From Magnetospirillum sp. ME-1 (GTDB taxonomy: Bacteria; Pseudomonadota; Alphaproteobacteria; Rhodospirillales; Magnetospirillaceae), in assembly GCF_002105535.1 (NCBI RefSeq), contig NZ_CP015848.1, positions 62,001-126,000 on the forward strand: 64,000 nt of DNA. The letters are read 5' to 3'. The position numbers and the translations under genes were made by a program. Below, in pieces: positions 7,197 through 58,579 of this stretch (the first letter of the stretch is position 1; each line of letters begins with the position of its first letter). Below the pieces are notes generated by a model. The model saw nothing but the letters and a program-made list of their open reading frames with translations. It was not told where the DNA came from and ran no database searches.

Positions 7197-7577
7197 ATGG
7201 ACGATATGGAAAGCGGCATCGTCAAGAAGTTCATGTTCGTCAACCGCAAGGCCCCCCACGGCACCGTCTACGCCCTGGAAGTGCTGGAAATGGTACTGAT
7301 CTCGGCGGCCTTCGACCAGGATGTGCATCTGGCCTTCCTCGACGACGGCGTGCTGCAGATCAAGAAGGGCCAGACGCCCGCCGGCATCGGGGTCAAGAAC
7401 TTCTCGCCCACCTACCGGGCGTTGGAGGGCTACGACATCGAGAAGCTGTACGTGGAGGCGGAAAGCCTGGCCGAACGCGGCCTGACCGAGGACGACCTGC
7501 TGGTCGACGTCGAGGTCCTGAGCCGCGCCGAGATGGGCAAGCTGATGGCCGAGATGGACGTGGTCCTGACGGCTTAA
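7197..7577 (+). CDS. dsrF: DsrF, DsrE-like subunit
   Basis: This is the second DsrE-fold subunit of the DsrEFH complex, 126 residues. It contains no cysteine at all, consistent with the structural, non-catalytic role known for DsrF. The typical N-terminus is KKFMFVNRKAPHGTVYALE, with ISAAFDQDVHLAFLDDGVLQ in the middle. It starts 4 bp after dsrE; an alternative ATG lies 9 bases further in. An inverted-repeat element separates it from dsrH. Confidence 0.95.
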   Translation: MDDMESGIVKKFMFVNRKAPHGTVYALEVLEMVLISAAFDQDVHLAFLDDGVLQIKKGQTPAGIGVKNFSPTYRALEGYDIEKLYVEAESLAERGLTEDDLLVDVEVLSRAEMGKLMAEMDVVLTA

Positions 7578-7578
7578 G

Positions 7579-7670
7579 CCCCCCACCCCAACCCCTCCCC
7601 ACGAGGGGGAGGGGCGATACGGAACGAAAGCTCTCCTCCCCTTGATGGGGAGGGGTCGGGGGTGGGGTGG
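7579..7670. repeat. GC-rich palindromic repeat, family A, copy 1 (between dsrF and dsrH)
   Basis: A roughly 92-bp element starts one base after the dsrF stop. It consists of CCCCACCCCAACCCCTCCCC, a GGGGAGGGG return, a short unique centre, then CTCCCCTTGATGGGGAGGGG and a G-rich end complementary to the beginning. The whole unit can fold back on itself and contains two smaller hairpins. The reverse complement of 12733-12820 is nearly the same sequence, so this is a dispersed family and the two copies are inverted relative to each other. Confidence 0.85.
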
Positions 7671-8378: not shown

Positions 8379-8388
8379 CCCCCAGCCT

Positions 8389-8483
8389 GTCATCCTGAGG
8401 GAGCCCTGCGACCGAAGGATCTTTCACGCGACCGATGGCAATCGCCATCGGCTGAAAGATCCTTCGCTTCGCTCAGGATGACA
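8389..8483. repeat. Long inverted repeat, family B, between dsrC and dsrM
   Basis: The element runs from TGTCATCCTGAG to CTCAGGATGACA and has three nested complementary arms. The outer arm is 12 bp. The middle arm pairs GAAGGATCTTTC with GAAAGATCCTTC. The inner arm pairs CCGATGGC with GCCATCGG around a 4-base loop. It has the same outer arms as the elements at 16507 and 49789, so it is a dispersed family of MITE- or REP-like intergenic repeats. In RNA it would form one long stem just past the dsrC stop. Confidence 0.88.
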
Positions 8484-8518
8484 CCGAAGGGCGTTGGCTA
8501 CGGCTTAAGCGAGGCACC

Positions 8519-10764: not shown

Positions 10765-12714
10765 ATGGCCGCCAAAGCCGAGAGCACCACCGAGGGACGG
10801 AACTACCGCCGCTACAAGGACGGCGAGTCGAGCCCCAAACACTGGCAGGAGGAGATCTTCAAGGCCGGCTGGTCGCACAAATGCCCGACCTATGTGCTCC
10901 GCACGCCGCCCTGCTCGGGCTCGTGCCCCTCGGGCCACGACATCCGCGGCTGGCTGGACATCGTGCGCGGCGTGGAAAAGCCCCCGGCAGGCATGGCCTG
11001 GCAGGAATACGCCTTCCGCCGCATGACCGAGGCCAACCCCTTCCCCGCCATCATGGGCCGCGTCTGCCCGGCCCCGTGCGAAAGCGGCTGCAACCGCAAC
11101 ATGGTCGAGGAACACGTCGGCATCAATTCGGTGGAGCACCATATCGGCGACTGGGCCATCGCCAACAAGCTGGCCTTCCCCAAGCCCGAGCATGAGACCG
11201 GCAAACATGTCGCCGTGGTGGGCGGCGGCCCGGCCGGTCTGTCGGCGGCCTATCACCTGCGGCGGGCGGGTCACGCCGTCACCGTGTTCGAGGAGAAGGC
11301 CGAGCTGGGCGGCTATGTCCGCTACGGCATTCCCGGCTACCGCACGCCGCGCGAGGTGCTGGATTCCGAGATCAACCGTATCCTCGATATGGGCATCACG
11401 GTGCGCACCAAGTGCCGCATCGGCACCGACATCACCGTGTCGGAACTGGAAGACAAGTTCGATGCCATCTTCTGGGGCATCGGCACCCATGCCGGGCGCG
11501 GCCTGCCCATTCCCGGCTGGAAGGACACCGTCAACTGCGTGTCGGGCGTCGCCTTCCTCAAAGCCTTCAACGAAGGCCGGCTGCAGCACGTTCCCGGGCG
11601 CATCATCGTGGTCGGCGGCGGCGACACCTCCATCGACGTGGCCTCGGTGGCGCGCCGCCTGGGGCATATCGACAAGGTCTCCGAGCAGGACCGCGCCGAC
11701 AACGTCATCTTAGGCCACGTGGCCCACGATGTGGCGGCCACGGCGCGGCGCGAAGGCGCAAACGTGACGCTGACCTCGCTGTTCCCGGTGGAGAAGATGT
11801 TCGCCGCCCAACGGGAAATCGACGACGCCAAGCGCGAGGGCGTCGATATCCGGGGCGGCATCATGCCGCTGGAGGTGATCAAGGGTTCGGACGGCCGCGC
11901 CGTCGGCCTCAGGCTCTGCCAATGCACCATGGAGGGCATGACGCCGAAGCCCATCGAGGGCACCGAGTTCACCCTGGACGCCGATCTGGTGGTGGCCGCC
12001 ATCGGCCAGGCGGGCGATCTGGCCGACCTGCCGGAGATGGACAACGGCAAGGGCTTCATCAACGCCGACAAGGCCTATCGCGTGCCGGGCAAGCCCAAGC
12101 ACTTCGTGGGCGGCGACGTGGTCAAGCCGCACCTGCTGACCACCGCCATCGGCCATGGCCGGGTGGCCTCGGCCGGCATCGGCGAGTTCCTGGACAAGGG
12201 CGACGTGGCCAAACGGCCCAAGGTGGATGTGCATCACTTCGACCTGCTGGCCAAGCTGCACGAAAGCAACCTGGACCCGGCGCCCTACCAGCCCGGCCCG
12301 GTGCGCGGCACCTTTGAGGCCAAGTTCGCCGTGCACAATTTCGAGAACCGGGCGGCGGCCGAGATCATCCCCCACGACGACCTGTTCCTGGGCCACTTCA
12401 CCCGCACGGCGCGCCATCACCGCCACGAGGTGCATATCGACGCCGACAAGGTGATCGGCAATTTCGACGAGCGCCTGCTGACGCTCACCGATGCCGAGGT
12501 GGTGGACGAGGCCAAGCGCTGCATGTCCTGCGGCCTGTGCTTCGAATGCGACAATTGCGTGGTGTTCTGCCCCCAGACGGCGGTCAGCCGGGTGCCCAAG
12601 GCCCAGCGCACCACCGGGCGCTACGTGGAGACCGACTACGCCAAGTGCATCGGCTGCCACATCTGCAAGGACGTCTGCCCCACCGGCTACATCCAGATGG
12701 GGCTGGGGGAATAG
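10765..12714 (+). CDS. dsrL: DsrL, NAD(P)H-dependent iron-sulfur flavoprotein
   Basis: This is the GltD-like oxidoreductase that interacts with DsrAB and exchanges electrons with NAD(P)+ in sulfur oxidisers. It has 649 residues. The N-terminal region holds four cysteines (KCPTYVLRTPPCSGSC). The FAD fold is at VAVVGGGPAGLSAAYHL, near residue 150, and the NAD(P) fold at IIVVGGGDTSIDVAS, near 280. A C-terminal two-cluster ferredoxin domain has CMSCGLCFECDNCVVFCP and CIGCHICKDVCPTGY. A GAGGGAGAG site lies before the ATG. Its presence supports the oxidative direction. Confidence 0.95.
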   Translation: MAAKAESTTEGRNYRRYKDGESSPKHWQEEIFKAGWSHKCPTYVLRTPPCSGSCPSGHDIRGWLDIVRGVEKPPAGMAWQEYAFRRMTEANPFPAIMGRVCPAPCESGCNRNMVEEHVGINSVEHHIGDWAIANKLAFPKPEHETGKHVAVVGGGPAGLSAAYHLRRAGHAVTVFEEKAELGGYVRYGIPGYRTPREVLDSEINRILDMGITVRTKCRIGTDITVSELEDKFDAIFWGIGTHAGRGLPIPGWKDTVNCVSGVAFLKAFNEGRLQHVPGRIIVVGGGDTSIDVASVARRLGHIDKVSEQDRADNVILGHVAHDVAATARREGANVTLTSLFPVEKMFAAQREIDDAKREGVDIRGGIMPLEVIKGSDGRAVGLRLCQCTMEGMTPKPIEGTEFTLDADLVVAAIGQAGDLADLPEMDNGKGFINADKAYRVPGKPKHFVGGDVVKPHLLTTAIGHGRVASAGIGEFLDKGDVAKRPKVDVHHFDLLAKLHESNLDPAPYQPGPVRGTFEAKFAVHNFENRAAAEIIPHDDLFLGHFTRTARHHRHEVHIDADKVIGNFDERLLTLTDAEVVDEAKRCMSCGLCFECDNCVVFCPQTAVSRVPKAQRTTGRYVETDYAKCIGCHICKDVCPTGYIQMGLGE

Positions 12715-12716
12715 GG

Positions 12717-13184
12717 ATGAGCCGGAGTATTGCCACCCCGCCCCCGCCCCCTCCCCATCAAGGGGAGGGGAGAAACGTGCCAAGCCCCTCCCCCCGGCGG
12801 GGAGGGGTTGGGGTGGGGGGCCGCCTGCTCGTCCTGTTCCTCCTCCTGTTCACCCTTCCCGCCTTCGCCGCCGACCTGCCCCACTGGCCCAAGGCCAAGG
12901 GCGAGGCCTGCATCGCTTCCAACGAGGTGATGCGGCGCGATCACCCGGACATGCTGAAGCATCAGCGCGACGACACAATGCGGCTCGGCATCCGGGGCGC
13001 CAAGGCGTCGCTGAAGGCCTGCGTCGAGTGCCACGCCGCCACCGATTCGGCGGGCAAAATGGTGCCGGTCAGCGATCCCGGCCAATTCTGCCAGTCCTGC
13101 CATGCTTACGTGGCGGTCAGGCCCGATTGCTTCGAATGCCACGCCACCACGCCCAAATCCCCGGTCAGGGAGGCGTCGCGATGA
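12717..13184 (+). CDS. dsrJ: DsrJ, periplasmic triheme cytochrome c (start overlaps a repeat)
   Basis: This is the periplasmic triheme subunit of DsrMKJOP. Three CxxCH motifs (CVECH, CQSCH, CFECH) bind haems, and an upstream GEACIAS Cys is placed like the unusual Cys haem ligand of DsrJ. The 5' end is odd. The ATG at 12717 puts 32 repeat-encoded residues, rich in Pro and Gly, ahead of the hydrophobic signal sequence. Two in-frame GTG codons inside the repeat, at 12777 and 12813, have strong purine-rich sites. GTG 12813, with GGAGG at 12801-12805, yields the ideal signal peptide MGGRLLVLFLLLFTLPAFAA and a 123-residue precursor. I report the longest form but think 12813 is the more likely start. 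It overlaps dsrO by 4 bp. Confidence 0.9.
   Translation: MSRSIATPPPPPPHQGEGRNVPSPSPRRGGVGVGGRLLVLFLLLFTLPAFAADLPHWPKAKGEACIASNEVMRRDHPDMLKHQRDDTMRLGIRGAKASLKACVECHAATDSAGKMVPVSDPGQFCQSCHAYVAVRPDCFECHATTPKSPVREASR
12733..12820. repeat. GC-rich palindromic repeat, family A, copy 2 (inside the dsrJ 5' end)
   Basis: This is nearly the reverse complement of the element at 7579-7670: a G-rich arm ending GGGGTTGGGGTGGGGGG pairs with the opening CCACCCCGCCCCCGCC, and there are two inner hairpins (CCCCTCCCCATCAAGGGGAGGGG and CCCCTCCCCCCGGCGGGGAGGGG, each written here as its arms). The reading frame stays open through it. It lies directly before the hydrophobic core of the DsrJ signal peptide. Confidence 0.85.
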
Positions 13185-16506: not shown

Positions 16507-16611
16507 TGTCATCCCGACGCCCAAAGGCGGAGGGATCTCGTCCTGGCATGCTGTTTCCAACATGGAAAAGCCCATCCAGGAGGAGATCCCTCGCCTGCGC
16601 TCGGGATGACG
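16507..16611. repeat. Long inverted repeat, family B, between convergent genes
   Basis: Outer arms TGTCATCCCGA and TCGGGATGACG enclose middle arms AGGGATCTC and GAGATCCCT and an inner TTCCA/TGGAA stem. The arms match those of 49789-49890 very closely and those of 8389-8483 in general plan. The element sits between the stop of the 423-residue gene and the stop of the SulP gene, where it could also act as a two-way terminator. Confidence 0.88.
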
Positions 16612-49788: not shown

Positions 49789-49890
49789 TGTCATCCCGAG
49801 GCACGGCCGAGGGATCTCCGTCTGGCGCGGCGTTTCCGAAATGGCAACATCGCTCCAGGATGAGATCCCTCGCATTCGCTCGGGATGACG
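49789..49890. repeat. Long inverted repeat, family B, between hoxH and the protease gene
   Basis: Outer arms TGTCATCCCGAG and CTCGGGATGACG, middle arms GAGGGATCTC and GAGATCCCTC; it is very similar to 16507-16611 and related to 8389-8483. It stands within the presumed hox operon, downstream of the large-subunit gene. Confidence 0.88.
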
Positions 49891-58271: not shown

Positions 58272-58579
58272 GCTCGCTCGCGCTCAGTGATGACAGGAAG
58301 AAGGGGATGACAGGAAGAAGGGGATGACAGGAAGAAGGGAACGACAAGATGGTGGGGTTTAGCCAAAAACACCGCCCATGTCACGGGCCGAGATGGACTC
58401 CATCAATGCACGATCACAACTGGCACAGGCCACTCCATTGGAAGATATAAGTAACGGTTCTTGACGCCGGCGTGAACAAGTGTGAGGAGAAAAAGCAAGT
58501 TGTTCCAACGCTTTGACTCCACCCCATCCCGCCATTATCTCTTGAATATGGCAGCCAGACGTCTTGGGTGGAGGACACC
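58272..58579. promoter_or_regulatory. Divergent gap between tex and hemerythrin, with candidate promoter
   Basis: This is 308 bp without a gene. It holds the tandem repeat next to tex. Closer to hemerythrin there is a likely promoter: TTGACT (58514-58519), a 16-base spacer, then TTATCT (58536-58541), 38 bases before the hemerythrin start. A second TTGACG hexamer near 58463 has no good partner. Confidence 0.4.
58289..58339. repeat. Three tandem copies of a 17-bp unit
   Basis: The unit GATGACAGGAAGAAGGG occurs three times back to back without mismatch, beginning 17 bases upstream of the tex start. It is probably slippage-generated. The purine-rich content on this strand means pyrimidine-rich in tex orientation, so it is not a ribosome-binding run. 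Confidence 0.85.

Follow-up and report, generated by a model that had tools for sequence, protein, structure and literature searches.

A palindromic repeat in the reading frame of dsrJ of Magnetospirillum sp. ME-1, probably read through as the n-region of the signal peptide

In the gene dsrJ of Magnetospirillum sp. ME-1, a dispersed palindromic repeat separates the first codons from the hydrophobic core of the Sec signal, and the repeat is in frame with the protein. The overall explanation that we favor, with a probability of about 0.72, is that this is a REP-like element behind dsrL that is read through from the ATG at position 12717 as the n-region of the signal peptide. All positions are those of the window, that is, the whole stretch of 64,000 nucleotides that was analyzed; it belongs to a genome (G000 in our numbering) that is a single contig of 4,551,873 bp (4.55 Mb).

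The dsr operon lies on the forward strand. Upstream of dsrJ is dsrL (10765-12714, +), an open reading frame with its stop codon TAG at 12712-12714, and 2 nt after it comes ATG 12717 (12717-12719, +), from which the frame is open through the repeat into DsrJ, ending at 13184. A run of Gs at the 3′ end of dsrL (12705-12709, +) can serve as the ribosome site for this ATG. Read from there, dsrJ (12717-13184, +; DsrMKJOP complex) encodes 155 amino acids, and residues 40-142 match the NCBIfam model NF038038 (E-value 2.7e-13) with 50 bits, which is under the 100-bit cut-off. Residues 1-32 begin MSRSIATPPPPPPHQGEGR (the MSRSIAT... region), and the hydrophobic core and c-region LLVLFLLLFTLPAFA are at 12825-12869 (+), where, as throughout, signal peptides were judged by eye and by hydropathy.

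The repeat itself occupies 88 bp at 12733-12820 (+), starting 18 nt after the dsrL stop, exactly where the preliminary description of this DNA had placed it. It falls inside dsrJ because dsrJ starts only 2 nt after dsrL ends. A pattern search finds two hairpins in it, neither assigned to a strand: CCCTCCCC-ATCAA-GGGGAGGG at 12749-12769 (G000:C1:74749-74769), and CCCTCCCC-CCGGC-GGGGAGGG at 12786-12806 (G000:C1:74786-74806), the latter containing the GGAGG at 12801-12805. The repeat supplies about 27 of the 32 codons in 12717-12812, and the first five or so are not derived from it. The 32 residues that would precede the signal if ATG 12717 is used, proposed earlier to be repeat-encoded, would thus come from the repeat for the most part only.

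That the repeat is dispersed is borne out by a genome similarity search, which gave 10 matches from about 7 separate places in G000; the best other copies are nearly full length, with 86% and 83% identity (E-values 2.7e-21 and 4.0e-19). One more copy is in the window on the reverse strand (7579-7670), in the spacer between dsrF, which ends at 7577, and dsrH. The two palindromic units are mutually inverted, as in REP/REPIN, and at 334112-334193 of G000 the repeat matches on both strands. Among the other genomes of the genus, at E-values ≤0.001, G037 has 34 matches, G048 has 3, and the remaining 14 have none. The hairpin pattern occurs at 15 places in G000 versus 1 for a reversed control pattern, and together with the copies in G000 and its relatives this rejects a chance palindrome or an assembly error. 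The transcript of the dsrJ region is predicted to fold at -106 kcal/mol, compared with -86.5 ± 4.7 for shuffled sequences (z -4.2). An Rfam search of the window reported nothing at the gathering threshold. Elsewhere in the window, at 58272-58356, there is a tandem 17-bp repeat, GATGACAGGAAGAAGGG.

We looked for DsrJ in 55 genomes of the family and found it in 38, which gives 30 loci, 29 of them with both dsrL and dsrJ. This count of 29 leaves out the dsrJ regions of G045 and G035 and six genomes with weak DsrJ matches, as well as G046, whose contig begins inside dsrJ, at the c-region of the signal peptide; it counts one locus with a long N-terminus (L096, in G016) as being without an insert, and more distant loci also have long N-termini (e.g., L030-L037). 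The G046 contig (G046:C261; L070, L165) begins at TLPAFASD, as if the assembly broke at a repeat.

An insert follows the dsrJ ATG in 6 of the 29 loci: in G000, in P. caucaseum (G034), P. kuznetsovii (G037), and P. marisnigri (G041), in strain UT-4 (G030), which belongs to another genus, and in G009, from a third genus. The ATG is at +2 of the dsrL stop in all of these except G009, where it is at +5. Sorted by eye, there are at least three types of insert among the six carriers. G000, G037, and G034 have a CCCCTCCCC hairpin in common by eye, and yet the window repeat has no match in G034 at E-values ≤0.001. The insert of UT-4 is a separate, 112-bp version of that hairpin, that of G041 is a 116-bp version with CCCTCTCCC, and that of G009 is a 70-bp double hairpin unrelated to the others. 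Five of the six recur as dispersed repeats in the genome that carries them; the numbers of matches, which include both-strand matches of one place, are 10 in G000, 10 in G034, 34 in G037, 38 in G041, 53 in G030, and 48 in G009. The sixth is that of G034, where the dsrJ copy alone is full length and the remaining matches span between roughly a quarter and half of the insert. The insert of G041 has three further copies of nearly full length, along with many that match its second half. The n-regions extended in this way have net charges from +1 to +6.

Relatives with an empty site tell us where dsrJ starts in the absence of a repeat. Six of them (G043, G039, G040, G044 with loci L014/L074, G048, and G047) have the dsrJ ATG 2 nt after the dsrL stop, at the position equivalent to 12717, and then a short signal peptide, such as MLARLLLGVLLMVSAAAASAFA in G043. 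In another element-free genome, G038, an ATG lies at -4 and a TTG at +2. ATG 12717 is therefore the ancestral start, and it has been neither lost nor put out of frame. The preliminary description had itself named such starts in repeat-free relatives as an outcome that would refute its idea.

All six insert-bearing genomes retain this ATG in frame with dsrJ and with no stop in between, and 7 of the 12 other forward frames of the six inserts contain a stop. As a background we took 64 other same-direction junctions with a repeat copy, some of them orthologous to each other. An ATG is found at -4 to +15 of the upstream stop in 18 of the 64, and in 4 of those 18 it is in frame and open. At this rate, the chance that all dsrJ cases are in frame is 0.0016 for 6 insertion events, 0.0037 for 5, and 0.0096 for 4, figures that treat the events as independent and depend on an uncertain number of them. 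The long dsrF-dsrH spacers have lengths of about 126, 109, 110, 108, and 109 nt, so that all three remainders of a division by 3 occur.

How many events there were can be approached with a tree built from the DsrJ core together with the final 400 codons of dsrL (28 rows, excluding the n- and h-region). The presence of the insert requires 5 changes on it, some of which may be losses. The sister of the window is G043 (support 100/99), which does not have the repeat. G037 and G041, which are sisters in the tree (81/42), may share one insertion, and G034 and G000 may share another one, lost in G043 by replacement. The latter is conceivable because G043 also lacks an insert that its clade mates have in a cytochrome gene described below, a hint that sequence was replaced by recombination. 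One ancestral insertion for the whole genus was considered and rejected, given the 5 changes and a p-AU of 2e-6 for the four carriers of the genus as one clade, a grouping chosen with a first tree already at hand. The h/c-region of the window is 63% identical to that of G043, compared with 94% for dsrL and 93% for the DsrJ core. As the h/c-region diverges more than its flanks, the 5′ end of dsrJ appears to have been rebuilt or exchanged, and not cleanly interrupted.

Which start codon is used in the window is the question on which the explanations part. The preliminary description had the repeat supply the ribosome site and the start of dsrJ, so that the repeat would be a non-coding spacer, its 3′ end would provide the ribosome site and the start at GTG 12813 (12813-12815, +) or at GTG 12777 (12777-12779, +), and ATG 12717 would be a fossil. 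The two GTGs are where they were said to be, and both are in frame with ATG 12717 and DsrJ. A start at 12813, with GGAGG 7 nt before it, would give a short and ordinary signal peptide. Without folding, the pairing of the ribosome sites with the anti-Shine-Dalgarno sequence is stronger for 12777 and 12813 (-12.8 and -11.9 kcal/mol) than for ATG 12717 (-9.2 kcal/mol, within a range of -6.6 to -9.2 across the 13 genomes compared). The repeats are mostly intergenic and their copies avoid called ORFs, which sets the prior in favor of a non-coding spacer, and the 2013 survey of REPs, in the part considered here, holds that many N-terminal REPs precede the true start (PMC3733652). When folding is taken into account, the prediction places the ribosome site of GTG 12813 inside a stem (unpaired probability 0.03, with 0.00 for the start codon), while GTG 12777 is predicted to be open (0.97, with 0.18 for its ribosome site); the region of ATG 12717 is also predicted to be structured (0.11 and 0.12).

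Against the non-coding spacer stand the ATG retained in frame in all six carriers, the element-free relatives that start at the equivalent ATG, the predicted burial of the ribosome site of GTG 12813, and UT-4, where that arrangement is impossible with ATG, GTG, or TTG starts. In UT-4, codon 11 of dsrJ is the last of these before the hydrophobic core, and the next one is GTG 51, inside the core; an ATT at codon 43 could serve as a rare start. With standard starts, then, about 31 repeat-encoded residues must precede the UT-4 signal, unless the rare start is used. It follows that a repeat-encoded extension, which had seemed unusual for an exported cytochrome, is not implausible. In the window, translation of the repeat is not forced, as GTG 12777 and GTG 12813 are available, and read-through from ATG 12717 is likely. 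We consider the non-coding spacer unlikely, and it is improbable to a slightly greater degree that both starts are at work, with a long precursor made from ATG 12717, whose ribosomes would open the hairpin, and a short one made from an internal GTG. Such dual use would agree with in-frame GTGs that have strong ribosome sites next to a retained ATG, and cleavage would yield the same mature protein from both precursors, but UT-4 has no second start.

A different kind of explanation is that the hairpin is kept for a function in the RNA, either stability or attenuation between dsrL and dsrJOP, with coding as a mere constraint. We regard this as rather unlikely, even if a role of such hairpins in the dsr operon is possible. 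The dsrJ insert folds stably, and in some genomes repeats are also found elsewhere between dsr genes: the dsrF-dsrH junction, which the repeat fills in the window, is also filled in G037 (L140/L150). The dsrC-dsrM spacer (8379-8518 in the window; L203-L215) is 70-164 nt long in 14 of 14 genomes and is predicted to fold in all of them, at -33 to -109 kcal/mol as computed without a shuffle control, its position being kept while its sequence varies. On the other hand, the dsrL-dsrJ insert is present in only 6 of the 29 family loci, and recurrence alone does not demonstrate selection. By eye, there is also a recurring structured spacer that ends approximately in CGCCCGGCGnnTGAGGGAC shortly before the next ribosome site, seen between dsrF and dsrH (L203, L208, L209), dsrK and dsrL (L204, L209, L212), dsrA and dsrB (L211), and dsrH and dsrC (L212).

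Returning to read-through from ATG 12717, the events may have been as follows. A REP-like intercistronic palindrome would have landed 18 nt behind the dsrL stop, a site that is already within dsrJ, downstream of the first codons and upstream of the hydrophobic core of the Sec signal. Translation would most likely still begin at the ancestral ATG and run through the repeat, giving a signal peptide whose n-region is long and positively charged and whose h-/c-region is ordinary, presumably to be cleaved off afterwards. Insertions at the n-region of dsrJ would survive if they are in frame. Signal-peptide n-regions probably tolerate inserts, and this would be why the same has recurred with different repeats.

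Copies of these repeats mostly lie between genes. In G000, the six regions examined hold 7 elements, all of them in same-direction spacers, and those of G037 are mostly in such spacers too, with two single hairpins inside called ORFs. Copies in same-direction, converging, and diverging spacers number 26, 23, and 0 in G030, 22, 6, and 1 in G009, and 15, 3, and 4 in G041; that is, they favor same-direction or converging spacers and are rarely in divergent ones. Not counting dsrJ, the copies inside called ORFs are 0 of 49 in G030, 0 of 29 in G009, and 3 of 25 in G041, near C-terminal ends, where the ORFs, like those behind the other location counts and the background junctions, were called by a crude codon-usage script trained on 14 genes of the window. 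Since the script settles on whichever start scores best, N-terminal inserts such as that of L225 below escape it. Same-direction copies 8-22 bp from the upstream stop make up 14 of 26 in G030, 2 of 22 in G009, and 5 of 15 in G041.

The 4 in-frame background cases look, by their sequences, like repeat-coded N-termini themselves, and in 3 of them a signal-peptide-like stretch follows the repeat. They are a cytochrome c/cytochrome d1 protein of G041 (L258; PF02239, E-value 2.5e-73), a lipoprotein-like hydrolase of UT-4 (L225, G030:C62:14500-17200; PF12146), a small lipoprotein-like protein of G041 that has no Pfam match (L266; alternative ATG at codon 48), and an FAD-linked oxidase of G037 (L146; alternative GTG at codon 40). 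The hydrolase would have about 100 repeat-coded residues ahead of LIAALLLSLFLTAC. Its codons 75-131 contain no ATG, GTG, or TTG, and going by the codons, no such start would give the signal without repeat-coded residues. Of its 12 relatives, 10 carry a short signal close to the stop of the upstream gene, such as MTAKALASVLIVFLLSAC.

The cytochrome c/d1 gene, for which we compared 13 loci, has a repeat of its own in G041 and another repeat in G000, G034, G039, G040, and G046. The site is empty in G037, G043, G044, G045, and G047, where a short signal such as MKALLFALTLLAVTPALA comes right after the overlapping ATG; no upstream gene was found for the G048 locus, and the N-terminus of G038 is longer, which is unexplained. 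In G000, this second repeat (GTCATCCCGAGC...GGGATGACG; G000:C1:3873812-3873919; L283, L364) is in frame after ATGA, and the residues LLPMVVGMT of the hydrophobic core are encoded by its end. An ATG at +80 is a possible start in G000; G040 and G046 do not have it. The repeat has at least 40 matches in G000, and the 40 copies examined lie in same-direction (28) or converging (12) spacers, the cytochrome copy alone being in frame from an ATG that touches the upstream stop. By eye, the same family is also present in the window at 16526-16611 and 49805-49890. A wider proposal would be that unrelated palindromic repeats repeatedly become signal n-regions, and once part of a core, at touching stop/start junctions, as a standing source of export signals, and that the dsrJ site is re-used because a translated hairpin is useful. 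We find this doubtful.

Our search of the open literature, by titles and the openings of abstracts, returned nothing on repeats in dsrJ or in Magnetospirillum. If the repeats are read through, their insertion is a route by which conserved respiratory proteins come to have rebuilt signal peptides, and a gene call that trims such a start is in error. The translation of N-terminal repeats is a point doubted in the cited part of the REP survey (PMC3733652). In dsrJ it can be put to the test: position alone identifies the ancestral start, there are relatives with an empty site, and the frame has been preserved through different inserts in several lineages.

The elements resemble REP/REPIN in being small GC-rich double hairpins with many dispersed copies between same-direction or converging genes. 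Unlike for REP/REPIN, no linked RAYT was found for the window repeat. A profile search with PF01797, which we take to be the transposase family of the RAYTs, had no match in G000; the family is present in 4 of the 17 genus genomes, and the hairpin pattern search found none in the 4.3 kb around the PF01797 gene of G037 (L152). Intragenic REPs are known from several genera, with different REPs at about the same recB site in two Xanthomonas species, according to the sections of the survey used here (PMC3733652), which regard many N-terminal REPs as probably non-coding; against that doubt, DsrJ of UT-4 and the L225 lipoprotein argue for coding. As far as the cited sections of two papers describe them (PMC3733652, PMC2229807), Rickettsia palindromic elements are in-frame palindromic repeats in conserved proteins, N-termini included. 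The dsrJ repeat is likewise an in-frame palindromic insert in a gene for a conserved alphaproteobacterial protein, here with empty-site relatives. It is set apart from the Rickettsia elements, by their description only, in that those occupy various places in ORFs, whereas the copies here mostly avoid ORFs and the in-frame cases are right behind an upstream stop and mostly before signal peptides. Finally, a Yersinia MITE forms part of the signal peptide of the putative exported protein YPO1552, in the account excerpted from PMC2229807, and there too a small repeat encodes part of an export signal. That case, as given there, is one putative exported protein; those described here involve conserved electron-transfer proteins with empty-site relatives, several times and with different repeats.
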